A stretch of 29,155 bases of DNA from a virus (IMGVR_UViG_3300033571_018636:1-29155); one strand, 5' to 3'. Numbered from the stretch's first letter, positions 938-29,155 are shown. Made by a program: numbers and translations. The notes: generated by a model not told the origin, from the letters alone.

Positions 938-1339
938 TCAATTGGTAATTTGCGATCCGTTTTTATCAACATAAATTTGACGCTGCGCTCTTGATGGAGA
1001 TGAAGTATCAATCACTGTTACTGTATATATATCTTTACCGGAGTTTGGGTCTATTGCAACACGCCTAATCGGAGTTTGATTCGATACTATCATATTTCGT
1101 CTTTGCAACCCTTTTTTAATAGACATCAATACATCTGAAGATACGGATGTTGATGTTTTTTGAGCATTTGATCCCTTTATTGCATTTTTCAACCCTTTAA
1201 CAGCGTTATATGGATCTCTGTATAATTTTCGAACTTCGGGAGCTGCTTTTTTAAGAATATAATCCAACCCACGCCCAGCAGATTTGATTCCGTTCCAAAA
1301 ACCTTCGTTTAATAATTCTAGTTGTGTGTATTTCTTCAT
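938..1339 (-). CDS. Putative internal/prohead-core protein with LxE leader
   Basis: A 133 aa basic protein without a recognised domain. Its first 12 residues, MKKYTQLELLNE, followed by GFWNGIKSAGRG, closely resemble the capsid-targeting peptides of T4 internal proteins (MKTYQEFIAE), which the prohead protease gp21 cuts after (L/I)xE. Cleavage would fall after Glu12. The mature part is Lys/Arg-rich, as expected of a DNA-associated or injected protein, and the C-terminal half looks beta-rich (DIYTVTVIDTSSPSRAQRQIYVD). The start codon overlaps the stop of the upstream gene (ATGA), so the two are translationally coupled. The internal-protein role is inferred from the leader and the late-gene context only. 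Confidence 0.6.
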   Translation of the reverse strand: MKKYTQLELLNEGFWNGIKSAGRGLDYILKKAAPEVRKLYRDPYNAVKGLKNAIKGSNAQKTSTSVSSDVLMSIKKGLQRRNMIVSNQTPIRRVAIDPNSGKDIYTVTVIDTSSPSRAQRQIYVDKNGSQITN

Positions 1340-1782
1340 AGTTTTACTTCTAAGTTCCTACCCGCAACATTTGATAAACTCACATCAATCAACGCATCTA
1401 AAGATTTTTGAATAAAGTCTTTGCCAATTAAAATCTTCTGATTGTTGCTGCTTCTATTACCAACGCTAAACGGAACATTTTTAAAAATCCGATCACCCAC
1501 TTTTATATTAAAATTAACAACCGGTCTAGCTTCGCTTTTACCAGCTCCTACATTTATGACAATTTCATCAATTAAGTCTTTTTCCAAAGACACCGCGTTG
1601 ACGGTGGTAAATCTGACAAGCTTCTGTTTCTTGTCAATTTGTATGTCTTCTCCGTGAATTACGTTGTATGCACCGTTTCCACTGTCAATTTTTGATGATA
1701 TTTTTCCGAGACCGTCGATATATACATCTTCGATCAAACCGATTATATACTTTTCAAAAAAGAAATCGTGGAAATTAATCAT
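1336..1782 (-). CDS. Retropepsin-like aspartic protease (RimK-associated PF05618-like)
   Basis: A 148 aa single-domain protein matching the pattern of the retropepsin-like 'ATP-dependent zinc protease' / RimK-associated family. An N-terminal strand (YIIGLIEDVYIDGLG) leads to the catalytic-type turn K-I-D33-S34-G35 and then AYNVIHG. ARPVV is at 85-89, a beta region follows, and the second-half motif ILIG is at 117-120, corresponding to the hydrophobic-hydrophobic-Gly signature of aspartic proteases. The active-site triplet is DSG, not the usual DTG, an accepted variant. Residues 1-10 (MINFHDFFFE) precede the domain and look like a T4-type capsid-targeting leader, though with F where L/I is usual. 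It sits in a late block between putative internal proteins. Family assignment is by motif; substrate and packaging are unknown. Confidence 0.65.
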   Translation of the reverse strand: MINFHDFFFEKYIIGLIEDVYIDGLGKISSKIDSGNGAYNVIHGEDIQIDKKQKLVRFTTVNAVSLEKDLIDEIVINVGAGKSEARPVVNFNIKVGDRIFKNVPFSVGNRSSNNQKILIGKDFIQKSLDALIDVSLSNVAGRNLEVKL

Positions 1783-1788
1783 GATTAA

Positions 1789-2223
1789 TTATTGGTCACA
1801 ACCGCAATTAGCGTAATCAGCTTTTGTAGAAAGTCTGAAATAAACATCGCTGGTGTAATCAGATGCTTTGGTGATTTTTGCAGCCATCCATTCTTCGAAA
1901 TCCGCATCTTTTGACATTTCACTCAAGCGATTTGCAAACTCGACCAATTTGGCTAATTCGCTTCTAATCATGTCATTACGCTCAGTTGTAGCATAGTCGC
2001 CATGCTCTTCTTCGTGATGTTCATTGTGATCCATTTCAACTGGTTCTACGGTGTCGAATGACATCACGACACTTTGTTGATCATCATTGCCGAAATCTCC
2101 ATCATTGTATTCATCAGACTGATCGAACTCACCCACGCCCATGTCATCTTCTTCGTCTTGAGATCCAAAACGAGTCATGTAGTTCTCCCAAATCAATCCA
2201 TGTTCTTTTAATTTAAAATTCAT
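1789..2223 (-). CDS. Putative internal/structural protein, acidic, LxE leader
   Basis: A 144 aa late protein. The N-terminus MNFKLKEHGLIWE carries an I-W-E site at residues 11-13, a candidate prohead-protease cut. A very acidic, probably disordered segment follows at about 20-80 (Asp/Glu/Asn, with HNEHHEEEH). A helical C-terminal part contains EEWMAAKITKASDYTSDVYF, a type of motif I associate with phage structural proteins without being able to name its family. It ends in CGCDQ. A late-promoter-like ATAAATA lies 5 nt before the ATG, overlapping the stop of the upstream gene. A core or scaffold-associated role is an inference; the acidic region resembles prohead-core proteins. Confidence 0.62.
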   Translation of the reverse strand: MNFKLKEHGLIWENYMTRFGSQDEEDDMGVGEFDQSDEYNDGDFGNDDQQSVVMSFDTVEPVEMDHNEHHEEEHGDYATTERNDMIRSELAKLVEFANRLSEMSKDADFEEWMAAKITKASDYTSDVYFRLSTKADYANCGCDQ

Positions 2224-2228
2224 AATAT

Positions 2229-2235
2229 TATTTAT
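2229..2235 (-). promoter_or_regulatory. T4-type late promoter motif (ATAAATA)
   Basis: On the minus strand ATAAATA ends 5 nt before the ATG of the gene starting at 2223. It matches the TATAAATA consensus read by a gp55-type sigma factor except for the first position, and it overlaps the stop codon of the upstream gene. A start site about 7 nt downstream of the motif would fall at the ATG. Confidence 0.5.
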
Positions 2236-2618
2236 TTAATGTTTCCGAGCAATGTTCTCATTTCATCTGGCATGTGAGAATTCATCACCTTTTGATACTG
2301 TTTGTAATATTCCCTACCATTAACCTGCCCTTGTTTGAGTGCATCATCAAAAGAATTTGCGATTTGATCGATTTGATCTTTATCTTCCAAGTTACCAACA
2401 GCGTCTAAATAAAGTTTACTTAATTCTAGAATGCTTTTAACATACTCGTTTTCGCCCTGCTGTGTCATTTTCAACTGCTCGGGCTCTGTAGGTGCCACAG
2501 GAGCCTCTACAGCGCTTTCTGGAGCTGCTGTGGGGTCTGTAGCGGCGATATCTTGCTCGTCTTGCTCTAAGAGCATTCTGTGATACTTCCGCATCAATGA
2601 TAGTGTTTTGCTTTTCAT
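2232..2618 (-). CDS. Putative internal/structural protein with LLE leader
   Basis: A 128 aa protein. A basic N-terminus (MKSKTLSLMRKYHRMLLE) ends in L-L-E at 16-18, a candidate prohead-protease cleavage site. It is followed by an Ala/Pro/Glu-rich linker (about 20-50) and a helical C-terminal domain (EYVKSILELSKLYLDAVGNL and on). It starts 2 nt after the stop of the gene at 2621, so it is translated from the same transcript. The organisation (leader, low-complexity linker, small helical domain) matches other proteins of this block. I cannot assign a family. Confidence 0.6.
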   Translation of the reverse strand: MKSKTLSLMRKYHRMLLEQDEQDIAATDPTAAPESAVEAPVAPTEPEQLKMTQQGENEYVKSILELSKLYLDAVGNLEDKDQIDQIANSFDDALKQGQVNGREYYKQYQKVMNSHMPDEMRTLLGNIK

Positions 2619-2620
2619 AA

Positions 2621-2983
2621 TTACATTTTCGCGATTGATGCTGTTTTCGCACTCAGGTCGCTTATAGCCTTTGGTAGTTTTGCATTTGCAACTCTTAAAA
2701 AGTCGGATTTTGCTTTTGCAGCTTTTGGATTTATAGTTGATGTTGCATCAACGACATCATACGCTTCGTTGTCTTCCTCATCTTCATTTGAAGATTTAAT
2801 ATCCACAATCTTAACCACATATGTTTTATCATTTGCAGCGTCATCAATATAAAAAACGCCGTCACCAGTGACTCCAAATTTTATTCCATGAGATTTCAAC
2901 AGCGTTTTTAGATCATGCACACCACTGAAAAATGTGGAATTTTCGGGATTGTAATTTTCGACAAGGGTTAAAAACTTACTCAT
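2621..2983 (-). CDS. Putative internal/structural protein with LVE leader
   Basis: A 120 aa protein with N-terminus MSKFLTLVE, then NYNPENSTFFSG. The L-V-E at 7-9 is a candidate prohead-protease cut. The middle looks like a small alpha/beta fold (DLKTLLKSHGIKFGVTGDGVFYIDDAANDKTYVVKIVDI). An acidic stretch and an Ala/Lys-rich helical tail follow. It is the first gene of a two-gene unit with 2232, with CTAAATA 6 nt before its ATG. Function unknown; the late structural context is clear. Confidence 0.6.
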   Translation of the reverse strand: MSKFLTLVENYNPENSTFFSGVHDLKTLLKSHGIKFGVTGDGVFYIDDAANDKTYVVKIVDIKSSNEDEEDNEAYDVVDATSTINPKAAKAKSDFLRVANAKLPKAISDLSAKTASIAKM

Positions 2984-2989
2984 GCATAA

Positions 2990-2996
2990 TATTTAG
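2990..2996 (-). promoter_or_regulatory. T4-type late promoter motif (CTAAATA)
   Basis: CTAAATA on the minus strand ends 6 nt before the ATG at 2983. Its TAA is also the stop codon of the upstream gene at 2993, so terminator codon and promoter core share bases. Confidence 0.5.
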
Positions 2997-3535
2997 ATAA
3001 AAAGGCACAGCTTGTTTGTAAAATCCTTAAAATAAGTCTCATTCAAGTATGTCAGACCGTTTTTTTCAAAATATTTTTTTATACTTTTAAACGATTTACA
3101 TTTTCTAGTTTCATTTAAAAAAACATCGAGTGATGTTATTGTCAAACAATCTCGTTTTTCGATATTTTCATAAAAAATGTTCATGTCTTCGTAGGACTCC
3201 ATCAGATTAAATCCGAAAATGGTTTTTAATTTCTTAACAAGTCTATTTCTAAAGTCATCTTTCGATAAAATATTACTATAAATTAAAATTTTCTCAGTTC
3301 TCGATCTATTTTTGATGTATTCCATGAATGTTTTTATAAATTCATGGGTGTAAAGTTTTTTATTGTTTGATTTTTTAAAATCAAAATCAACTTTCAATCC
3401 AAGTCCATCGAGAAGTTTTGCAAAATTGCGATTTGTTTCCTTGAAAATTTGATCAATGTCTATAATTTCTTTATTTTTTGTTTCAAAAACGATGGAAACA
3501 ATATCATCATCTATTTTTTCTTTCAGAACACTCAT
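2993..3535 (-). CDS. Hypothetical protein downstream of GIY-YIG nuclease
   Basis: About 180 aa if it starts at the ATG at 3533-3535 (MSVLKEKIDDD), which overlaps the upstream nuclease gene by 29 nt. An upstream ATG at 3595 would give 200 aa and an 89 nt overlap. The protein is rich in Lys, Phe, Ile and Asn, mostly helical by eye, and has no motif I recognise. There is no N-terminal LxE site of the kind seen in the neighbouring late proteins, so it probably does not belong to that set. With the nuclease it may be part of an inserted segment. Function unknown. Confidence 0.5.
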   Translation of the reverse strand: MSVLKEKIDDDIVSIVFETKNKEIIDIDQIFKETNRNFAKLLDGLGLKVDFDFKKSNNKKLYTHEFIKTFMEYIKNRSRTEKILIYSNILSKDDFRNRLVKKLKTIFGFNLMESYEDMNIFYENIEKRDCLTITSLDVFLNETRKCKSFKSIKKYFEKNGLTYLNETYFKDFTNKLCLFI

Positions 3536-3965
3536 TGAAATCGAAGTTTTTGTATTTTTCTTGCAAAGATTTTGGAACAGAATTGATTCTAACATTGATT
3601 ATGCCATTGTATGATTGATTGTCAAACAAAACATTGTGTTTCATTTGTTCAAACATTTCTAAAAATTTCATCTCCCATTGATTTTCACACAGGTGTAATA
3701 TTTCTTTAGAAAAATATTCCAATCCATATGTTTCAATATCCCGTTTCAATTCTTCTGAACTACCCCAATATTTTTCAACATCATTATCAACATATGATAT
3801 TCTAGGTCTTTTTTTACCTTTTAATGGTTTTCTTTTTAATCTTTTTAAAAGTTTTTTACACCCAATATAATATTTTTTTAAAGAATCAGGATGGTTATTA
3901 TAAATTTTATATACAAATCCATGATAACCTTCCGTGTTGTCTGGCATGTTTTTCCAATTCGACAT
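3507..3965 (-). CDS. GIY-YIG endonuclease (Seg-like homing nuclease)
   Basis: A 152 aa protein with a GIY-YIG domain: GFVY at 16-19, YYIG at 32-35, then YWGSSEEL at about 67-74. A helix with the likely catalytic Glu (EMKFLEMFEQ) and the ending NVLFDNQSYNGIINVRI are typical of T4 seg-type free-standing nucleases. Such enzymes cut cognate phage genomes at specific sites and drive spread of their own gene. No separate DNA-binding domain is visible beyond the basic loop KRLKRKPLKGKKRPR after the YIG motif. It lies between late genes, preceded by an AT-rich intergenic region; the nearest late-motif match (TTAAATA) is 10 nt before the ATG. Confidence 0.78.
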   Translation of the reverse strand: MSNWKNMPDNTEGYHGFVYKIYNNHPDSLKKYYIGCKKLLKRLKRKPLKGKKRPRISYVDNDVEKYWGSSEELKRDIETYGLEYFSKEILHLCENQWEMKFLEMFEQMKHNVLFDNQSYNGIINVRINSVPKSLQEKYKNFDFNECSERKNR

Positions 3966-4179: not shown

Positions 4180-4434
4180 TTACATTTTCTTCTTAATTTT
4201 ACCATTCTTTTTGTGTTTAGCTGGATCAAATAATGGTTTGATTTTATTTCTTCTTTGAACACCGAGAACCGTAGGTATTCTAGTGTCTCCTTTTGCATAA
4301 CTATCTTCGTTTTCAATGGGTATTTCCTGCATTTCTGTTGAACCACCAACGACAGATGCTGAATCCATGTTTTCAGAATACATAGATTCGTATAAATTTT
4401 CCATTTTTTGTATTTCTTTTCTTGACAATGACAT
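4180..4434 (-). CDS. Small putative internal protein with LYE leader
   Basis: 84 aa, starting at MSLSRKEIQKMENLYE. A longer reading (93 aa from 4461) would put the start upstream of the late promoter, so I prefer this ATG. L-Y-E at residues 14-16 is a candidate prohead-protease site. The middle is acidic and Ser/Glu-rich, and the C-terminus is strongly basic (PAKHKKNGKIKKKM), suggesting DNA contact. A perfect TATAAATA lies 5 nt before the start. It is divergent from the uvsY-like gene with 28 nt between the two ATGs. No family recognised. Confidence 0.6.
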   Translation of the reverse strand: MSLSRKEIQKMENLYESMYSENMDSASVVGGSTEMQEIPIENEDSYAKGDTRIPTVLGVQRRNKIKPLFDPAKHKKNGKIKKKM

Positions 4435-4439
4435 AATTA

Positions 4440-4447
4440 TATTTATA
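4440..4447 (-). promoter_or_regulatory. T4 late promoter, perfect TATAAATA
   Basis: Exact match to the T4 late consensus TATAAATA on the minus strand, 5 nt before the ATG at 4434. This is the best instance in the window and anchors the reading of the shorter TAAATA motifs elsewhere. It lies in the 28 nt between two divergent start codons. Confidence 0.75.
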
Positions 4448-6849: not shown

Positions 6850-7869
6850 ATGATTACAAATACTAAAATAGCCATTTTCAGCGATCTCCACTTGGGGATT
6901 TATGGGAATAGTGAAAAATGGCACAACACTGCATTGGAGTGGGCGGATTGGATTGTTTCTGAATTGAATAAGAAAAAGATCACAAATATATTTTTCTTGG
7001 GTGATTTTTTCGATAATAGAACTGAAATAAGTGTACAAACATTGCATATTGCATCTCTAATCATAGAAAAATTCAGAAATTTTAATATGTTTATGATAAT
7101 AGGCAATCATGACGCTTATTATAAGAACAGAAGCGATGTTCATAGTCTCGGAATGGTCAAGGGACATGAAAATATCACATTGGTAGACAAAACATTAGAA
7201 TTTGAAAAGTTTGGTAAGCGTTTTTTGATGGTTCCTTGGAATAATGAGCTTCCAGATTCCAAATATGATTATATTTTTGGCCATTTCGAGTTACAAACAT
7301 TCAAAATGAACAATTTTACTGTTTGTAACCACGGTTTATCCCCGATTGATATACTTTCCAAGGGAAAATTGGCATTTTCTGGTCATTTTCACAACAGAAA
7401 CAGTAAAAAATATAAAGAAGGCAGTATTAATTACATTGGAAGCTGTTTTTCGATGGATTTTTCCGATGTGGATAACACAAAGGGGTATCATATTTTGGAT
7501 GTTGAAGACGGATCTGTTGAATTTTTTGAAAATGTAGTGTCTCCATCGTTCATTAAATTTAATCTAAGCACTCTCAAAGGCTTGGATAAAGATTTGATCA
7601 AAAATAATATAGTTAAATTGATTGTTGATAAGGAGATTGAAGAAAAAAATCTAGAAAAAATTCAAATCGCTATTTCCAAGTTAGCGCCTTGGCAGTTTAC
7701 AACAGAACATAATGTATCTACAAAAACTTTGGATGATGTTGAAGTGGTTGATTCAATCAATATTGATGATATGTTTGATGAATTCTATGAAAAGTTAGGG
7801 CTTTCGGATGATCAGCTTGAACGAGTTAAAAAAATAAACAAAGATCTATATAATAATAACAAATTGTAA
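6850..7869 (+). CDS. 47: gp47 recombination nuclease subunit (SbcD/Mre11-like)
   Basis: 339 aa, the same length as T4 gp47. The calcineurin-type metallophosphatase motifs are all in place: D12-x-H14, GDFFDNR at 51-57, GNHD at 85-88, GH at 144-145 and GHFH at 178-181. These residues bind the two metal ions of the Mre11-family nuclease. With gp46 it forms the complex that resects DNA ends for recombination-dependent replication. The gene is followed by 46 with a TAATG stop/start overlap, giving coupled synthesis of the two subunits. Confidence 0.93.
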   Translation: MITNTKIAIFSDLHLGIYGNSEKWHNTALEWADWIVSELNKKKITNIFFLGDFFDNRTEISVQTLHIASLIIEKFRNFNMFMIIGNHDAYYKNRSDVHSLGMVKGHENITLVDKTLEFEKFGKRFLMVPWNNELPDSKYDYIFGHFELQTFKMNNFTVCNHGLSPIDILSKGKLAFSGHFHNRNSKKYKEGSINYIGSCFSMDFSDVDNTKGYHILDVEDGSVEFFENVVSPSFIKFNLSTLKGLDKDLIKNNIVKLIVDKEIEEKNLEKIQIAISKLAPWQFTTEHNVSTKTLDDVEVVDSINIDDMFDEFYEKLGLSDDQLERVKKINKDLYNNNKL

Positions 7870-9668
7870 TGAAAAAAATCAAATACAAAAGACTATCAGT
7901 TCAAAACTTCTTGAGTATTGGCAATGATACCATCGAATTAAATTTTCAGAAAGGATTGAACCTAATCACGGGCCAAAATATCGATAATCCAGAAAGAAAG
8001 AACGCTGTTGGTAAAAGCGCTTTGATGTCCGCTTACTTCTTTGCAATTTTTGGAGAAACTATTGGAAAAATCAAGAATGAATTCATTGTAAACAATGTAA
8101 CAAAGGGCAAAGGCCGAATTGAACTTGAATTTGATGTTGAATCATCTTCTGGAACGCAAAGTTATAAAATTATTAGACAAGTAAAGCCATCTAAAGTTGA
8201 ACTTTGGAGAGGATCTGAAGATATAACTCGCGACAGTATATCAAATACAAACAAATACATATGCGATCTGCTTGGTACCAATCCAATAATACATAAAAGC
8301 TGCGACATAATGACATTAAGTGATACCACACCATTCATGTTGAAGTCAGCAGCTGAAAAGCGAAAATTTATTGAAGATATTTTTGGCATTGAGATATTTG
8401 GATTGATGTTAAAGGATCTAAAGAAACACATCAATGAGAATAAGAATGATATGAATGTGTCTTCAGCTGTGTTGGATGAATTAAACACATCCATAGCGGC
8501 ATATAATTCTCAACTTGAACAGATTAAGAAGCAAATAGCTGAACGAGAGGCTGTTCTAGCATCTAGAAAGGCTGAATTGCAAGATAAAATCGAAAATGTG
8601 AAAGCTAGATTGGCTGATCTACCCCCCGATGTCGATATTTCTAAATTGAATGATCAATTCAAGAAATTAAACGACGCTTTGATTGGTTTAGATGCTAAAT
8701 TGGAAGCAATTTCAACTAAAATAACCGAGTCCAAGAGAGATTTAAATTATACTAATCTCGAATTATCAAAATTAAACAGTGTTGATGGAGTTGAATGCGA
8801 AAAATGCTTGCAAAGTATTTCTCATAATCACATTGAATTTATAGAGCAGCGTAAAGTTGAAACTTCCAATAAAATAACAAATATAGAGAATGATATTATA
8901 TTATATCAGTCCGAAAAAAGAAAATGGGACGATAATAAAAATCGTATTAAAACTAATATCGATTTGATAAACACGCAGATTAAAAACCAACAAGAAATTA
9001 GTCGTAAAAAGGAAAATTTAATACAAATTTTAAAACAATACGAAGAAAATCTGGAAAATTTCGAATCTGATAATGTCAACTCTGGAATAAGCCCTGATGT
9101 TTTTGAGGAAAACATCAGAAAAGTGGAACATCGTAAAGTTGAATATGATGCAAAACTGGCTGCGTGTAAAGAAAAGGAGAGTGATTATGATATTTGTAAA
9201 TTTGTTCTGGGAGAAGAGGGGGTTAAAAGTTTTGTAATTAAGAAATTACTTGATATGTTGAATCACACAATTCAACTATATATAAAAAACTTAGGTATGG
9301 ATATCGTTTGCAAATTTGATGAATATTTCGATGAAGAAATTTCAACAAAAGGTAAAAAGTTTTCGTATAATAACCTATCAGGAGCTGAAAAACGAAGTGT
9401 TGATGTGGCGTGTGTATTGAGTTTTTCTGATATGAGAAGAAAAATAAGCGGAATATCCAGCAATCTTGAATTTTATGATGAAATTTTCGACAGTGCATTC
9501 GATGAGCGTGGGTTGGATCTATTGATAGAAGTTCTGAAGAAGAGAATTCAAAAAAATAAGACATGCGTTTATGCAATTTCTCATAGAAAGGAAACCTCAA
9601 AGCATGTCGATGGTGAAATCGTTTCTTTGGAAAAGGAAAATGGTGTAACTAGACGAATTTTTCCATAA
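7869..9668 (+). CDS. 46: gp46 recombination ATPase subunit (SbcC/Rad50-like)
   Basis: 599 aa (T4 gp46: 560 aa). ABC-type ATPase split by a coiled coil: N-terminal P-loop ending GKS at 48-50, long helices from about 190 to 450, a zinc hook C310-E-K-C313 at the apex, signature LSGAEK at 503-508 and Walker B EFYDE at about 534-538. The P-loop is stretched: between ITGQN (33-37) and AVGKS (46-50) lies IDNPERKN, so the usual GxNGxGKS spacing is enlarged; I recall similar forms in marine T4-like phages. Works with gp47 in end resection. The start overlaps the gene 47 stop. Confidence 0.92.
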   Translation: MKKIKYKRLSVQNFLSIGNDTIELNFQKGLNLITGQNIDNPERKNAVGKSALMSAYFFAIFGETIGKIKNEFIVNNVTKGKGRIELEFDVESSSGTQSYKIIRQVKPSKVELWRGSEDITRDSISNTNKYICDLLGTNPIIHKSCDIMTLSDTTPFMLKSAAEKRKFIEDIFGIEIFGLMLKDLKKHINENKNDMNVSSAVLDELNTSIAAYNSQLEQIKKQIAEREAVLASRKAELQDKIENVKARLADLPPDVDISKLNDQFKKLNDALIGLDAKLEAISTKITESKRDLNYTNLELSKLNSVDGVECEKCLQSISHNHIEFIEQRKVETSNKITNIENDIILYQSEKRKWDDNKNRIKTNIDLINTQIKNQQEISRKKENLIQILKQYEENLENFESDNVNSGISPDVFEENIRKVEHRKVEYDAKLAACKEKESDYDICKFVLGEEGVKSFVIKKLLDMLNHTIQLYIKNLGMDIVCKFDEYFDEEISTKGKKFSYNNLSGAEKRSVDVACVLSFSDMRRKISGISSNLEFYDEIFDSAFDERGLDLLIEVLKKRIQKNKTCVYAISHRKETSKHVDGEIVSLEKENGVTRRIFP

Positions 9669-14153: not shown

Positions 14154-15290
14154 ATGTCTGAAATAAAACAAAAAGATTTAGACGCTCTATGGGAGACCGT
14201 GGCAGATATTACGCCATATTCTTCGTATTTGAGTGAAAATAAAGTATCCAAAGATGATTGGATCGACACTGGATCGATGGTGTTGAACGCTTTGATCTCT
14301 GGATCTTTGTATGGAGGTGTTCCGCGTGGTCGAGTTACTCAATTTGCTGGACCTAGCCAAACATTTAAAACTGGATTCATCCTAAAGACTCTAGCCAATG
14401 CTCAAAAGAAGGGCATGCAAGTTATCATATATGATACCGAGGGAGCGATTGATGACGAAAGTGCACGGGCGATGGGCCTCGATACAACCAAGGTTAAGTA
14501 TTTCAAAACCAAAACAGCTGAAAGTACTCGCAACTCCATTTACAAGTTGCTAACTAAAGTTAAAGAGAATGGTTGGGACGGTAAGTTCATTATCGCAATC
14601 GATTCGATTGCGAACTTGCAGAGTGAAATGGAAGTCAACAGAATGGACAAGGAAAACACATCAGCTGATATGGGTTCCTTCGCAAAGAGTGTTAAATCTC
14701 TTCTCAAGACATGCACTGTTATGAGCAATCTAACAAACACTCCAATTTTGCTGACCAATCATGTGTATGATGATCCAAGCCAGATGTATCCGACTCTTGA
14801 GAAGAATATCGCTGGAGGTAAGGCTGCTGTATATCTCCCATCAGTCACTATTCAGTTGGCTAGAAAAGCAGCAAAGGATGACGGTGGTAAAACTATCGAA
14901 GATACCAAAGCGGCTTCTCAAAAGAGCTTCTCAGGTGTTATCATTCGAGCTTTGACTGTTAAAAATCGTTTTATTAAGCAGTACCTAGAAGGTGAAATGT
15001 ACCTAGAATTTGCAACTGGATTGAGTAAGTATTACGGATTGTTGGAAATTATGAAAGGTATGGGAGTAGTAGTTGCAAATGGAGCGACATACACCGACTG
15101 GAAGGGTGTGAAGCTTGGTTTTTATAAACAGTGGAAAAACCAACAGGATGTGTGGGACTATTTAATTCCAGAATTAGAATCCCGACTCAAATCCGAGTGG
15201 TCGTATGGAAATAAACTAACTGGTGTTGAAGACATGCCAGATGAGGATGACTCGGAATATGTAGAAGATTCGGAAACAACTGAAGAATAA
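14154..15290 (+). CDS. uvsX: UvsX recombinase (RecA-like)
   Basis: 378 aa (T4 UvsX: 391 aa). Walker A GPSQTFKT at 66-73 is the UvsX form (T4: GPSKSFKS), with Phe where RecA has Gly. Walker B KFIIAIDSIANLQS and the loop containing ILLTNHVYDDPSQMYPTLEKNIAGG follow in order. The N-terminus includes WIDTGSMVLNALISGSLYGGVPRGR, the usual lead into the P-loop. The C-terminal tail is acidic (PDEDDSEYVEDSETTEE), as in RecA proteins, where it tunes DNA binding. It catalyses strand exchange, with the UvsY-like protein as mediator. Followed directly by a strong bidirectional terminator. Confidence 0.95.
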   Translation: MSEIKQKDLDALWETVADITPYSSYLSENKVSKDDWIDTGSMVLNALISGSLYGGVPRGRVTQFAGPSQTFKTGFILKTLANAQKKGMQVIIYDTEGAIDDESARAMGLDTTKVKYFKTKTAESTRNSIYKLLTKVKENGWDGKFIIAIDSIANLQSEMEVNRMDKENTSADMGSFAKSVKSLLKTCTVMSNLTNTPILLTNHVYDDPSQMYPTLEKNIAGGKAAVYLPSVTIQLARKAAKDDGGKTIEDTKAASQKSFSGVIIRALTVKNRFIKQYLEGEMYLEFATGLSKYYGLLEIMKGMGVVVANGATYTDWKGVKLGFYKQWKNQQDVWDYLIPELESRLKSEWSYGNKLTGVEDMPDEDDSEYVEDSETTEE

Positions 15291-15291
15291 G

Positions 15292-15325
15292 AAAAAAAGG
15301 GAGTGGTTAACCACTCCCTTTTTTT
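15292..15325. terminator. Bidirectional intrinsic terminator after uvsX
   Basis: A7, then the perfect 20 nt palindrome at 15299-15318 (stem GGGAGTGG, centre TTAA), then T7. It works in both directions: it ends the uvsX transcript and the convergent late gene, whose TGA begins at the last T. Confidence 0.93.
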
Positions 15326-17118
15326 CACTTGGTCATCCAATGCCAATAATTAATCGGCTTTTTAAATCCTCTATCGTTGTATTTTGAATTATCTCCTTTG
15401 AATTTAGAATCTCGTTGCAGTTGATTTTCCATATAATGGAATGTTGAATCATAAGATTCCTGCACAGGTCGTTCTTCAACTGGTTGCTGTTGAACTGGTT
15501 GCTGTTGAACTGGTTTTTTATCATCCATTATAGCTTTATCCATTTTTGCCATCACTCGTTCCAGTCGGTTAGCAGCATTCAACTCCAACACTTGTAATTG
15601 CATTTTAATGACATCTTTCACTTTTTGAAACATGTCTTTATTTTCAGGTTTATCAAACACGGCTCGCACGACTCTCTTTTCAATACCGTTGATTTCGTAC
15701 TGATTGTCATCATTGCCAAGATTTCCATAATCAATACCGACCAATCCATCATGTATGCTTTGCAAAACTTCGGTTTCATTTGGTGCAGTATTCAGTGCTT
15801 TTATTTTATCTACAACTTTGGTTTGAAAGTCATCTGATGTGAAAGCTATACCTTTATCATTGTATTTGTCTAAAAACATATCGAGTAAGTCTTTGATCAA
15901 ATTGAAACTTTTTAATGTTATGCCATTAACAGCTTTTCTTGGGATATTCACAGATGGCGCTGATATTGAATTTATGTATACAGGCTTAGATGGATCAAAT
16001 GCAGTGTTGATGTTTTTTCTAACATCAACCCCCCAAATAGCCAATATTGTTTCTAGATATTCATTAACATCATATTTTTCATCATCGGCATCGATGTCAT
16101 TCGGAAGTTCTCCAGTTTCTTCGTATTTTTTTAATGACGGAGATAGAGCATTTGGATCTTTTCTCTTTTTAATTGCGTGTCTTTGAATTTTATTGAGATT
16201 TTTAAGTTCTTTTATCAACGGTTCAACTTCGTTTCTTAGAGTAGCGTAATCAGACCTGCTAATATTGGCAGCTTTTAAGAAAATATCCTCTGCTTGCATA
16301 GCTGTAGCAGAACGATGTCTATCGGAAAGGCGATAGTGTTTAAATAAATCCATTGTTAACCTATCTGTGAATTCTCTCGAAGTTATTATATTTTGTCTTT
16401 TTTTAATATCGGGATCGATTTCAGATGATTTTGGATTTGAAACGAATAATTTTTCATATGCCGCAGTCATAGCCCTGTCATTAGTAGATGTGCCATTTGT
16501 TACAAGTTTAACCACATCCAACGGACCTAATACCGAAGCATCTGAATCATCTGGATTGTTAATCATATCAAATCTTTGTTGCAATAATGTATCCAACCTA
16601 GATGCGTGAGATTTGTTTTTTGATATATCATCCATAATCTTCATTAGTTCCTTTTCAATTTTGCTAGGAAGTTTTAATTTAGCGAATTGATCTGATGATA
16701 ATGATTTAAAATCTGGGAAATACACGCTATAAACAATAGATTCCGCCAATCTGATCGCAGAATCATAGTGCGGCTCTGCTTCGGAATCTGGATATATGTC
16801 TTCAAATGTTGCAATATCGAAATCTTCAGATCTTGGATATATATCTTTGAATATATCATGGACGAGTTTGTTAATTTCCTTATTGATAATAGGAATGGTA
16901 TATTCAAATTCTTTGCTCATGTCATTATACAATCCGATGACGGTTTTATTAAATAAATATCCTCTCGTTGATGGCCCAGCGTGTGGATCTAGTTCTCTAA
17001 GTAAGGGACTCAGCTCAGCGTATTTATTGTTCAAAGGTCCGAATTTAGTTGGCGGTTTGGCCATTTCATCGATCTGTTCTAAGCATTCGAGCAAGTGATC
17101 AAATTTGATTTTTTCCAT
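15325..17118 (-). CDS. Large late protein with LLE leader, probably internal/structural
   Basis: 597 aa from the ATG at 17118, chosen because GTAAATA lies 5 nt upstream and the leader MEKIKFDHLLE matches the (L/I)xE pattern of neighbouring late proteins (cut after Glu11 predicted). A longer reading to 17301 would run through the promoter and into the divergent gene. The body is helical and charged, with no catalytic motif that I recognise. Near the C-terminus is the short repeat PVQQQPVQQQPVEERPVQ, then a basic aromatic ending (FKKPINYWHWMTK). It stands alone between two replication blocks. A large injected or core protein is plausible, but tail or capsid roles are not excluded. Confidence 0.62.
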   Translation of the reverse strand: MEKIKFDHLLECLEQIDEMAKPPTKFGPLNNKYAELSPLLRELDPHAGPSTRGYLFNKTVIGLYNDMSKEFEYTIPIINKEINKLVHDIFKDIYPRSEDFDIATFEDIYPDSEAEPHYDSAIRLAESIVYSVYFPDFKSLSSDQFAKLKLPSKIEKELMKIMDDISKNKSHASRLDTLLQQRFDMINNPDDSDASVLGPLDVVKLVTNGTSTNDRAMTAAYEKLFVSNPKSSEIDPDIKKRQNIITSREFTDRLTMDLFKHYRLSDRHRSATAMQAEDIFLKAANISRSDYATLRNEVEPLIKELKNLNKIQRHAIKKRKDPNALSPSLKKYEETGELPNDIDADDEKYDVNEYLETILAIWGVDVRKNINTAFDPSKPVYINSISAPSVNIPRKAVNGITLKSFNLIKDLLDMFLDKYNDKGIAFTSDDFQTKVVDKIKALNTAPNETEVLQSIHDGLVGIDYGNLGNDDNQYEINGIEKRVVRAVFDKPENKDMFQKVKDVIKMQLQVLELNAANRLERVMAKMDKAIMDDKKPVQQQPVQQQPVEERPVQESYDSTFHYMENQLQRDSKFKGDNSKYNDRGFKKPINYWHWMTK

Positions 17119-24588: not shown

Positions 24589-25593
24589 TTAAAAAACTGA
24601 AAGAATTTCAGTTCCCGAATTATTAAAAATGATAGTTAAATGAGTATATCCCGATTTTATCGATGCTGATCGTTTACTTTTATTCAATTCTAACATATTA
24701 TTATATGTATACTCGCATTTAACCTCGATTAATGTATTAGCATGTTTTATATATAAATCTGGAAAATACATTTTATTAGCGCCTTCAAACATGTATCTTA
24801 TTTTAGGAACGCTTCGACCTGATTGTATTTGATATACATCAAATTTCATCTCATTTACAAGATATTGTATTGCTTGAGGTTCGTATCCTTGAAGATGGCT
24901 AAATTTTTTACCGTTAATTATGAATGATTTAAATTTATATCTATTTATGTTTGATTTTTCATGTATGATAGGATGCTGCATTGGATTTTCCACTCCTAGA
25001 TTTTTTAAAAATGTGGCTTTTTTTCGGCTGATGGTAGATGGGAGATTAGCAGATTCTGTTAATGTTCGCATTTTAACGCCTAATTTTTTAAATTTAGTTC
25101 GGAGTCCGCTTGGCGTTATGTTATATTTTTTACCTATTATTTCTAAAACTTCTCCATTTTCATACATTGATATTGCATCATTGAGATCTTCGATATTTTT
25201 TAATTTTTTCGTGGTTCCTTTTGGTCTCCCATCTTCAGTATTTTTACTCTCCTTTGAATTTCTCAACGCTATATTATTTCGTTGTAGTAGTGTTTTAATA
25301 GCTTGATATGAACATCCTATGCGTTTTTTGATACTTTGTATTGTTAATTGTTCATCCAGATACATGCTTAAAATTTCAGTTGAATGATTTTCCAATTTTA
25401 ATACAGATAATGATTTTGGTGAATATCCATTTTTTATTAAAATATTCTGAATTGGTTTACGATCACACTTATATATTCTTGATAACTCTGAAATAGATAG
25501 TTTTTTGTTTATGTGTGCATCGATGATTTCTTCTTCGAGACCTTTAATTTGTGGTAATTTACTTCTCCATATTACGTCATATTTATACTTCAT
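24589..25593 (-). CDS. Putative homing endonuclease, HTH repeats plus PD-(D/E)XK-like domain
   Basis: 334 aa. The N-terminal half has about three HTH-like units (KLSISELSRIYKCDRKPIQNIL; QLTIQSIKKRIGCSYQAIKTLL; VLEIIGKKYNITPSGLRTKF), good for DNA recognition. KKATFLKNLGVENPMQHPIIHEKS is a motif I associate with phage homing nucleases. The C-terminal part has MYFPDLYI...NTLIEVK, matching the D...ExK core of PD-(D/E)XK nucleases. It is its own transcription unit: ATAAATA 6 nt before the start, a terminator just upstream of it and another downstream. Typical of a mobile gene dropped between operons. Function is inferred from motifs. Confidence 0.7.
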   Translation of the reverse strand: MKYKYDVIWRSKLPQIKGLEEEIIDAHINKKLSISELSRIYKCDRKPIQNILIKNGYSPKSLSVLKLENHSTEILSMYLDEQLTIQSIKKRIGCSYQAIKTLLQRNNIALRNSKESKNTEDGRPKGTTKKLKNIEDLNDAISMYENGEVLEIIGKKYNITPSGLRTKFKKLGVKMRTLTESANLPSTISRKKATFLKNLGVENPMQHPIIHEKSNINRYKFKSFIINGKKFSHLQGYEPQAIQYLVNEMKFDVYQIQSGRSVPKIRYMFEGANKMYFPDLYIKHANTLIEVKCEYTYNNMLELNKSKRSASIKSGYTHLTIIFNNSGTEILSVF

Positions 25594-25677: not shown

Positions 25678-26163
25678 TTAACAAAAAGCTGATGTATCCA
25701 CTCCAAATAGACTGAGAGATGTCAGCAATGCCCAAGCGACATACTTATATTTGGCATTCTTGGTCTGCGCCATGAATCCTAAGAATCCCTGATGCAGAGC
25801 GGCTAAGTCGGATGCAACTCTGGATATTTTAGTTTGTTGAGATTGTTTCATTTTGTCAAAAACTGTGTCTGGTTCAGCATTGGCCAATCTGCTTTGAATG
25901 CTCGATGGGTCTTCGCTGTTTAGAATTTTTAGGAAGTTATCAATTTCATTAATCCAAGTTTGTAATTCACCTACGATTTGTTGGTTTCTTTTTGATAAAA
26001 TATCAGCGAGTTCGCTTTGGGTGTCATCGACACTGACATCAGCATCAAATTGCGTTGGATCGGTATCATCATCTAAAGACGCCTCCATGGCGTCTCTCTC
26101 AACATCCATCATATCATCTTCTAATAGAATTTTTTTAAAACGTCTTCCGTATAGATTGGTCAT
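25678..26163 (-). CDS. Putative internal/structural protein with LLE leader
   Basis: 161 aa with a basic N-terminus MTNLYGRRFKKILLE; L-L-E at 13-15 is a candidate prohead-protease site, after which the sequence turns acidic (DDMMDVERDAMEASLDDDTD). The rest is helical, with coiled-coil character (SELADILSKRNQQIVGELQTWINEIDNFLKIL) and a more hydrophobic end (YKYVAWALLTSLSLFGVDTSAFC). The leader is built like those of the late proteins at 938-2983. CTAAATA lies 5 nt before its ATG, and a strong terminator follows. Core or injected protein is inferred. Confidence 0.63.
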   Translation of the reverse strand: MTNLYGRRFKKILLEDDMMDVERDAMEASLDDDTDPTQFDADVSVDDTQSELADILSKRNQQIVGELQTWINEIDNFLKILNSEDPSSIQSRLANAEPDTVFDKMKQSQQTKISRVASDLAALHQGFLGFMAQTKNAKYKYVAWALLTSLSLFGVDTSAFC

Positions 26164-28125: not shown

Positions 28126-28749
28126 TTAAAAATTTAATTTTTTGCAATGTTTATCGATACACGGTGTTGTATTCGCGGGAGCTTGAGTTGTGGTGGGTTG
28201 AATTGTAGTTGTTGAGGTCGTCGCAGGTAATGTAGTTTCTATAATTGTAGATGGATCTGTGAGCGATTGGGATTTTGGAATCGATACTTTTGGAATCGGC
28301 GGTAATTCTACAGGCTTTTTTGTTGTATTTTCAACTGGTGGAGGAAATATATATTTCACTCTTGGGGGGCAGCATGGTATTTTAGGAGCTTGTGTCGTAC
28401 TCGTCGATGTGCTAGTGCTAGTTGATGTGCTAGTACTCGTCGATGTGCTAGTGCTAGTTGATGTGCTGGTCGGGATCGGAGTGGTGCTCGTTCCCTCAGA
28501 CACTGATATGGTCACATTGGCCGAACCATAAAGATTACCGTCGTTAATTTGGGCATATTCCCAATATATTAGATAATCATCTTTTGGTATAGTGTATACA
28601 TATGATGTATTGAGTTCATAATCTACACCAGTTATATATAGATCTTCATCATTATATATAAAAATGTTGTAAAAATACCCCTCTTCTGGAATAGCATGTA
28701 TATTAACTGTAAGAGGAGCGGACCCTGATATTGGCGTTATACTGATCAT
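28126..28749 (-). CDS. Mucin-like protein with PKD/Ig-like N-domain and Thr-Ser repeat
   Basis: 207 aa. Residues 1-85 look like a small PKD/Ig-like beta domain (MISITPISGSAPLTVNIHAI; YDYELN-type strands; SANVTISVSEG). Then comes a pure Thr-Ser repeat (about 95-118), a Pro/Lys-rich part with PCCPP, a Thr-rich part (TTLPATTSTTTIQPTTTQ), and a C-terminal Cys knot-like end TPCIDKHCKKLNF. No signal peptide or membrane helix is visible. A fibre-like or head-decoration surface protein with a glycosylatable stalk is plausible. The 3' half is clearly related to the next gene's C-terminal part (both have LPPI.KV..P and TPC.DK.C). The start lies 7 nt after that gene's stop. Confidence 0.65.
   Translation of the reverse strand: MISITPISGSAPLTVNIHAIPEEGYFYNIFIYNDEDLYITGVDYELNTSYVYTIPKDDYLIYWEYAQINDGNLYGSANVTISVSEGTSTTPIPTSTSTSTSTSTSTSTSTSTSTSTSTTQAPKIPCCPPRVKYIFPPPVENTTKKPVELPPIPKVSIPKSQSLTDPSTIIETTLPATTSTTTIQPTTTQAPANTTPCIDKHCKKLNF
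28394..28470 (-). repeat. 18-bp tandem repeat coding for Thr-Ser
   Basis: Units beginning GATGTGCT recur at 28406, 28424, 28442 and 28460, exactly 18 bp apart, alternating between two variants (a 36 bp higher-order period). They code for (Thr-Ser)n on the minus strand. Synonymous differences between units show the repeat is older than the perfect one at 29089. Confidence 0.85.
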
Positions 28750-28756
28750 AATTATA

Positions 28757-29155
28757 TCAATATCCTAATATATTGCATTTTTTGTCTTTACACGGTGTTA
28801 TTAAACTGGTCGATGTTGCTGTAGTCGGAGATGGTGTGGTTTGAGTAGTTGTTGTTATTGTTGTAACAGTCGTGGATGCTATATTATCCGGGTTTGAAAG
28901 TGGAAACGATGCAGGTACAACAACTTTAATAATAGGCGGTAGTGTATTATTAATTGATGGAGTTTTAGTCGTTAAAGATATTGGAGTTGGAGGGGTCTCG
29001 ATGATTAAATCTGGACAACTTAAACATGGATAGCATGTAGTGGAGCCCGGTGTTGGAGGTGTTGTGGGCGCGGTGGTTGTTGTACTAGTACTGCTTGATG
29101 TACTGCTTGATGTACTGCTTGATGTACTGCTTGATGTACTGCTTGATGTACTGCT
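28757..29155 (-). CDS. Second mucin-like protein, 5' end cut by window
   Basis: The last 132 codons of a gene that continues beyond the window; the reading frame is open to the edge. From the edge inward: a perfect Ser-Ser-Thr-Ser repeat, a Thr/Pro-rich run, a CYPCLSC cluster, LIIETPPTPISL, LPPIIKVVVPASFPLSNPDNI, another Thr-rich run, and the ending TPCKDKKCNILGY. It shares the order of these blocks with the gene at 28126, so the two are tandem paralogs. Its stop is 7 nt before the start of that gene, so they form one operon with the GT2 glycosyltransferase. Role as a virion surface protein is inferred. Confidence 0.62.
   Translation of the reverse strand, partial: SSTSSSTSSSTSSSTSSSTSSSTSTTTTAPTTPPTPGSTTCYPCLSCPDLIIETPPTPISLTTKTPSINNTLPPIIKVVVPASFPLSNPDNIASTTVTTITTTTQTTPSPTTATSTSLITPCKDKKCNILGY
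29089..29155 (-). repeat. 12-bp perfect tandem repeat coding for Ser/Thr
   Basis: TACTGCTTGATG repeats five times without a change, plus seven bases of a sixth at the window edge; it probably continues. It codes for Ser-Ser-Thr-Ser on the minus strand. Perfect identity, including codons, indicates recent expansion and likely copy-number variation; assembly length here should be treated with care. Confidence 0.9.

Follow-up and report, generated by a model that had tools for sequence, protein, structure and literature searches.

T4-type N-terminal leaders on the late proteins of an uncultured phage, and a coat-protein-like module carried by one of them

The question raised by this locus is whether the short N-terminal leaders of its late proteins are prohead-targeting signals of the kind known from bacteriophage T4, where CTS propeptides of 10–20 residues are removed by gp21 and work on foreign proteins (PMC9958956, PMC5694885). 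The first-pass annotation had proposed that late proteins of this phage share N-terminal (L/I)xE leaders, that the plus-strand replication proteins do not show them, and that at least seven core or internal proteins are packaged, probably to be injected with the DNA. The open reading frames that it named, with starts at 1339, 1782, 2223, 2618, 2983, 4434, 17118 and 26163, all exist on the minus strand with the N-termini as quoted (Table 1), the start at 17118 sitting within a longer reading frame and having a TAAATA box just upstream.

The window, by which we mean the whole stretch analysed, is a virus record of 29,155 bases, a fragment with no larger genome behind it. Its phage is an uncultured member of the T4 superfamily: the plus-strand DNA polymerase is about 30% identical to those of Caulobacter phage Cr30 and cyanophages, and the translated plus-strand genes look like replication functions of the T4 type (UvsX-, gp41-, gp46/47- and gp32-like). 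Among cultured phages there is no DNA-level near-identity match to the window, tblastn with the 1336–1782 protein and with orthologs of three further families gave no cultured relative at the chosen thresholds, and no cultured member or virion proteome was found for the phage group. The closest relative is the 50-kb contig G001, with 87–93% DNA identity to the window across most of the overlap; the 154-kb contig G008 holds the same gene block, with a marker protein about 60% identical to that of the window. Several minus-strand neighbours of the leader genes are without leaders, namely a SegE-like GIY-YIG homing endonuclease gene inside the leader-gene block (3507–3965; Pfam E=3e-21), an overlapping reading frame of no assigned family (2993–3595), and a DUF7487 protein in late orientation with weak helix-turn-helix matches (24589–25593; E=2e-24). 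On the same strand, 28126–29155 encodes tail-fibre-like Ser/Thr-rich proteins, the long (ST)n runs of which are prone to slippage.

Table 1. Leader genes of the window and associated features (a slash marks the predicted cut)
Position	Strand	Feature	Detail
938..1339	-	basic (pI 10.2) hypervariable candidate cargo protein	conservation restricted to leader
1304..1339	-	leader of 938–1339 protein	MKKYTQLELLNE/GFW, predicted cut after E12
1336..1782	-	retropepsin-like protein, RloA/RimB aspartic peptidase-related	Pfam PF05618 E=6.3e-9
1753..1782	-	leader of 1336–1782 protein	MINFHDFFFE/K, predicted cut after E10, FxE type
1789..2223	-	acidic (pI 4.2) leader-bearing protein	
2185..2223	-	leader of 1789–2223 protein	MNFKLKEHGLIWE/NY, predicted cut after E13
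2232..2618	-	acidic (pI 4.8) leader-bearing protein	
2565..2618	-	leader of 2232–2618 protein	...YHRMLLE/QDE, predicted cut after E18
2621..2983	-	leader-bearing protein, pI 5.3	
2957..2983	-	leader of 2621–2983 protein	MSKFLTLVE/N, predicted cut after E9
4180..4434	-	small basic (pI 9.4) protein	leader, gp23-like module and Lys-rich tail
4264..4371	-	module like mature gp23 N-fist and N-arm start	NMDSASVVGG...EDSYAKGDTRIPTVL
4372..4434	-	leader of 4180–4434 protein	MSLSRKEIQKMENLYESMYSE/NMDSA, probable cut after E21
4440..4447	-	TATAAATA	just upstream of start at 4434
15325..17118	-	597-aa late-strand protein, no family assigned	
17086..17118	-	probable leader of 15325–17118 protein	MEKIKFDHLLE/C, one sequence, TAAATA box upstream
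25678..26163	-	acidic (pI 4.4) leader-bearing protein	40 viral-contig loci
26119..26163	-	leader of 25678–26163 protein	MTNLYGRRFKKILLE/DD, predicted cut after E15

The motif was counted as [LI].E within residues 5–18, and the expectation was taken from windows of 14 residues at other positions in the proteins concerned. So counted, it occurs in 8 of the 14 minus-strand proteins against 1.5 expected (P=2e-4; 2.8 expected from shuffled N-termini, P=1e-3) and in one of 23 on the plus strand, a UvsX-like protein, against 4.7 expected, in agreement with both of the patterns that had been claimed. When both strands are pooled the count (9/37 versus 6.1) is not significant; set beside the minus-strand enrichment, this restricts the signal to the late strand. 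As the hypothesis had been formed on the window, the syntenic block of G008 provides the fairer test, and there 9 of 13 proteins carry the motif against 1.2 expected, a repeat that is not independent of the kinship between G008 and the window. In T4 the same simple count gives 48 of 246 against 36 expected, which is no clear enrichment; taken alone, the motif says little about any single gene, and orthologs are needed.

Orthologs of the window families were gathered from 36 loci. Five families show a conserved Glu at the end of the leader, and four of the five have a leader that is more strongly conserved than the body (42–67% versus 14–25% identity, the leader figures leaning somewhat high because leader ends were chosen by regular expression). 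For the 938–1339 family (13 distinct orthologs) the leader, of pattern K[LY][ST]QK.LLxE followed by GF, is 59% identical and the bodies, of 120–518 aa, 14%; in blastn 908–1344 has no match in G001, though both flanks match at 90–93%, so that a leader of the same kind is joined there to a swapped body, as expected of a cargo locus. The corresponding values for the 2621–2983 family (MSKFLxL[VI]E; 11 orthologs) are 67% and 21%. Leaders end in LIWE, LIAE, LLSE or MLEE in 22 distinct orthologs of the 1789–2223 protein, and those of the 2232–2618 protein read ...YRILNE before QE or ...YMRLLE before QD. In the 25678–26163 family, for which 32 relatives are listed, L13 and E15 are nearly invariant across 21 aligned sequences; an AF2 model of this protein was of low confidence (pLDDT 56) and was not used. 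The exception is the 1336–1782 family, in which the body too is conserved (58%). The FFFE remarked upon at residue 10 of this protein proves to be its conserved leader end, read in orthologs as FFIE, FFVE, YIEE or FFE, and the (L/I)xE picked up by the count is a separate site at E18. For the protein starting at 4434, a leader exists as had been proposed, but the LYE quoted for it (E16) is not the conserved site; the family alignment places the conserved Glu at E21 (MYSE, or MLNE in one ortholog). No orthologs of the 15325–17118 protein were found in viral contigs, and in G001 the locus is cut by the contig end. At a similar genomic place G008 encodes a protein of 503 aa that has DLLNE close to the N-terminus, a counterpart in position and at most a candidate homolog.

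The window itself, being a fragment, contains no gp21 gene. The gp21-type protease that the first-pass annotation would have looked for elsewhere in the genome is encoded in relatives: of the 17 related contigs, 11 have Peptidase_S77 (gp21), G001 included, and 9 have Gp23; in both G001 and G008, gp21 and gp23 share a strand with the leader block. The gp22 of G001 begins MKIKDLLNE and its gp21 MSLKLKLISE. Between these two genes lies one for a Lys-rich protein without a leader (39433–39885, L059/L060 region), the place of which recalls T4 gp67/gp68. In the T4 record the leaders end ...LLIE (gp21, E9), ...LIAE (gp22, E9), ...LLRE (gp24, E10) and ...FIAE (IPII and IPIII, E10), and from the literature T4 gp24 loses 10 residues and T4 gp21 cleaves nine from itself. 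T4 Alt has ...LFDE (MELITELFDE), with which the FFFE at 1782 is in keeping.

A position matrix was built without the G008 clade, on 73 dereplicated leaders. On this held-out clade, seven G008 N-termini score at least 10, versus 0.7 expected from internal windows, and two of the seven come from families absent in training. These two, a cytidyltransferase-like protein (8994–9533 of L011) and a DUF6267 protein (7789–8997), lie in the late block with strong leaders, MRTFKEYFED and MKKFKLYFED respectively, and are candidate packaged enzymes. Applied to T4, the same matrix places seven known gp21 leader substrates, as a group, ahead of the 237 other calls (P=4e-4), with many single false positives and no clean separation of single proteins. 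The leader signal is thus a property of the class and not a gene-by-gene predictor. The protein ranked third in T4 is gp2, the DNA end protector (MAIFQIINE; L192 27061–27885).

The hexamer TAAATA directly precedes the ATG in five of the eight leader genes (2223, 2983, 4434, 17118 and 26163), boxes that were read off with the strand counts in the window (7/16 on the minus strand, 3/23 on the plus) as sole control. In G008 it precedes leader genes as well as genes read as sheath, tube and gp21. The octamer at 4440–4447, TATAAATA, is identical to the T4 late -10 consensus; exact copies are not enriched in the window (3 versus 4.4 expected), and the shorter hexamer at the start codon was the more informative of the two. 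As far as sequence goes, the TAAATA boxes and the strand of gp21 and gp23 in relatives are compatible with late expression of the leader genes, along with the head genes.

By its predicted fold and its D-[ST]-G motif, both in common with the RloA/RimB retropepsins (PF05618), the 1336–1782 product is a retropepsin-like protein. The D33 of the motif is invariant in 18 aligned sequences, and the AF2 model (pLDDT 80) has a Foldseek match to RloA (9g58, E=1.1e-8). RloA or RimB proper is ruled out, as the scores fall far below the NCBIfam equivalog cut-offs (RloA3, 3e-8 and 33.5 bits versus 210; RimB, 27.6 versus 200), and with the fold retained the protein is best described as a distant relative; unlike RloA and RimB it is phage-encoded and carries a leader, and its peptidase activity is putative. 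The ortholog in G001 (14714–15733) has 339 aa with a C-terminal extension, and the window version has 148 aa without it. This difference in size, together with the differing neighbouring cargo gene, may mark a recombination or deletion hot spot.

In the 4180–4434 family the leader is followed by a Gly/Ser-rich stretch containing D-x-Y-A-x-G-D-x-R-x-P-K-x-L and then by a Lys/Arg-rich tail. The middle portion resembles the coat protein gp23. A two-sequence blastp comparison of the module with the gp23 of its own clade gives E=1.6e-6, and hhalign of the family against gp23 N-termini gives a probability of 98.1 and E=1.4e-13 over 48 columns, with a score of 81 versus at most 15.8 in 30 column shuffles. 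Among 1,582 ORFs the family profile matched gp23 of G001 and G008 at 1e-6 and, beyond these and the family itself, was significant only for two larger leader-bearing proteins. The alignment runs from the predicted gp21 cut in gp23, after a 65-residue propeptide (from the alignment of gp23 with that of T4), to the start of the N-arm; in T4 the N-fist comprises gp23 residues 66–91 and contacts four subunits (PMC7136217). One pattern search located the module at 202 viral-contig loci, and in bacterial and archaeal genome contigs it was not found. It stands at the C-terminus of a GNAT acetyltransferase in L035 (leader MKIGKVLNLINE), adjoins DUF5661 in L149, and is N-terminal to larger regions in L036, L128, L136, L145 and L177, the first of which has a weak XendoU match. 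The extended similarity (e.g. SFGxGxTM...YxP) favours common descent with gp23 over convergence. When the module was scored against own and foreign gp23 as a measure of co-evolution, the own one was best in three of five phages and not in the other two.

Of the readings that would deny these leaders a role in loading cargo, the most serious is that they mark a prohead scaffold in the style of T4 gp22, gp67 and gp68, which gp21 would chop into peptides that leave the head, with nothing delivered to the host. Three of the leader proteins are indeed small and acidic (pI 4.2–4.8), the gp22 of the relatives carries a similar leader, and T4 gp21 breaks down gp22, gp67 and gp68 (PMC9958956). On the other hand, [LI].E occurs 4.1–4.9 times per 100 residues in gp22 homologs versus 0.8–2.8 in the leader proteins, a sparseness that argues that most of them would be clipped, not shredded, the case being least clear for the acidic 1789–2223 protein; others are basic and hypervariable like the T4 internal proteins, and some are enzyme-like (retropepsin-like, cytidyltransferase-like, GNAT). 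We regard a purely scaffolding role as unlikely, though far from negligible, and since five leader proteins hold further internal [LI].E sites beyond the leader, some could be degraded core proteins. That the leaders sort proteins to some other late destination (tail, membrane or a host factor) is improbable: localisation has so far been read from sequence, but the same kind of leader is found on the head-core proteins gp21 and gp22, its form agrees with the leaders of T4 gp24, gp21, gp22, IPII and IPIII, and one family pairs it with a segment of the capsid protein. Mere coincidence of short, charged N-termini could account for the pooled window count and for the T4 count given above; the strand-specific enrichment, its repeat in G008, the held-out matrix and, above all, conservation of the leader in orthologs leave this reading with hardly any weight.

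The gp23-like module calls for a separate judgement. It could be a relic of evolution, or a capsid cement in its own right, rather than a docking tag for cargo, and we put the chance of this only somewhat below even, as most members of the 4180–4434 family consist of leader, module and Lys-rich tail with nothing more, and a small basic protein could just neutralise DNA or cement the lattice. Against it stands the recurrence of the module at either end of proteins with GNAT, DUF5661, weak XendoU and other regions. The module may, judging from its likeness to gp23, be a coat-protein mimic that docks cargo, and the presence of a piece of gp23 in a leader-bearing protein hints that cargo may be docked within the shell by a second route. 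We accordingly advance, as a tentative proposal with the odds leaning against it, that uncultured T4-like phages use two modular tags for head loading, one being the CTS leader, which is cleavable, and the other a copied gp23 N-fist segment. Through the latter, cargo such as an acetyltransferase, other domains or a DNA-binding Lys-rich tail would dock on the inner capsid wall by imitating the N-terminus of a coat subunit.

The leader is real, conserved in orthologs, enriched on the late strand, and of the same kind as the leaders of gp21 and gp22 and of the T4 gp21 substrates. We conclude that these leaders are T4-type prohead-targeting propeptides, with packaging and cleavage inferred by analogy; the proposal of at least seven packaged core or internal proteins is well supported, if indirectly, by the protease, the enrichment and the ortholog conservation. 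At least seven, probably eight, late minus-strand proteins would carry an N-terminal propeptide of about 9–21 residues, approximately an amphipathic helix ending in hydrophobic-x-E, which as in T4 would pull them into the prohead core during shell formation. The gp21-type protease of the phage would then cut after the Glu, and the mature protein would be left inside the head. Injection with the DNA would be a further, conjectural step, and the acidic members may be core proteins that are not ejected. The module of the 4180–4434 protein would dock on the inner shell at the position of a gp23 N-fist, and its Lys-rich tail, which may contact DNA, or the fused domains in other phages, would tether DNA or cargo there. 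We give this explanation, taken as a whole, a probability of roughly 0.83.

The known system nearest to this is T4 itself, in which the CTS-bearing internal proteins IPI, IPII and IPIII, and Alt, likewise have a 9–21-residue leader ending in hydrophobic-x-E and are products of late genes, as the leader proteins here probably are. As with the T4 internal proteins, variable bodies stand behind conserved leaders and the phage group has a gp21-type protease. The difference is one of breadth, in that at least five unrelated families use the leader here, whereas the T4 CTS is reported as conserved only in IPII and IPIII (PMC9958956), and in that packaging is a prediction in the present case. Head and ejection proteins of the giant phage SPN3US also have a propeptide, which a related prohead protease removes and which has been proposed as a head-targeting signal, but most of those propeptides exceed 100 residues, and the ones described here are short like those of T4 (PMC5694885). 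The N-fist and N-arm of T4 belong to gp23, whereas the module here sits on proteins that lack the capsid fold, some of them separate, small and basic, others multidomain. A search of the open-access literature turned up no paper in which a cargo tag mimics the coat protein, and none on an N-fist outside gp23, which is weak evidence of novelty. Encapsulin cargo-loading peptides are also short tags for docking, there to the inside of a shell with the HK97 fold; the likeness is one of concept alone, with no claim to a sequence relation, and the tag described here resembles the coat protein's own N-terminal region.

The kind of signal is thus known from T4, and what is new is the breadth of families that bear it in uncultured phages, together with the coat-protein-like module. 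The placement of proteins in the T4 core has been described as still mysterious (PMC9958956). With many families sharing a common leader, the signal becomes readable from alignments and not from two T4 proteins, and the 4180–4434 protein, bearing the N-terminal segment of the coat protein, is a concrete candidate for a contact between a core protein and the shell. Candidate head cargo, enzyme-like proteins among it, can as such be picked from sequence in phages that have not been grown.
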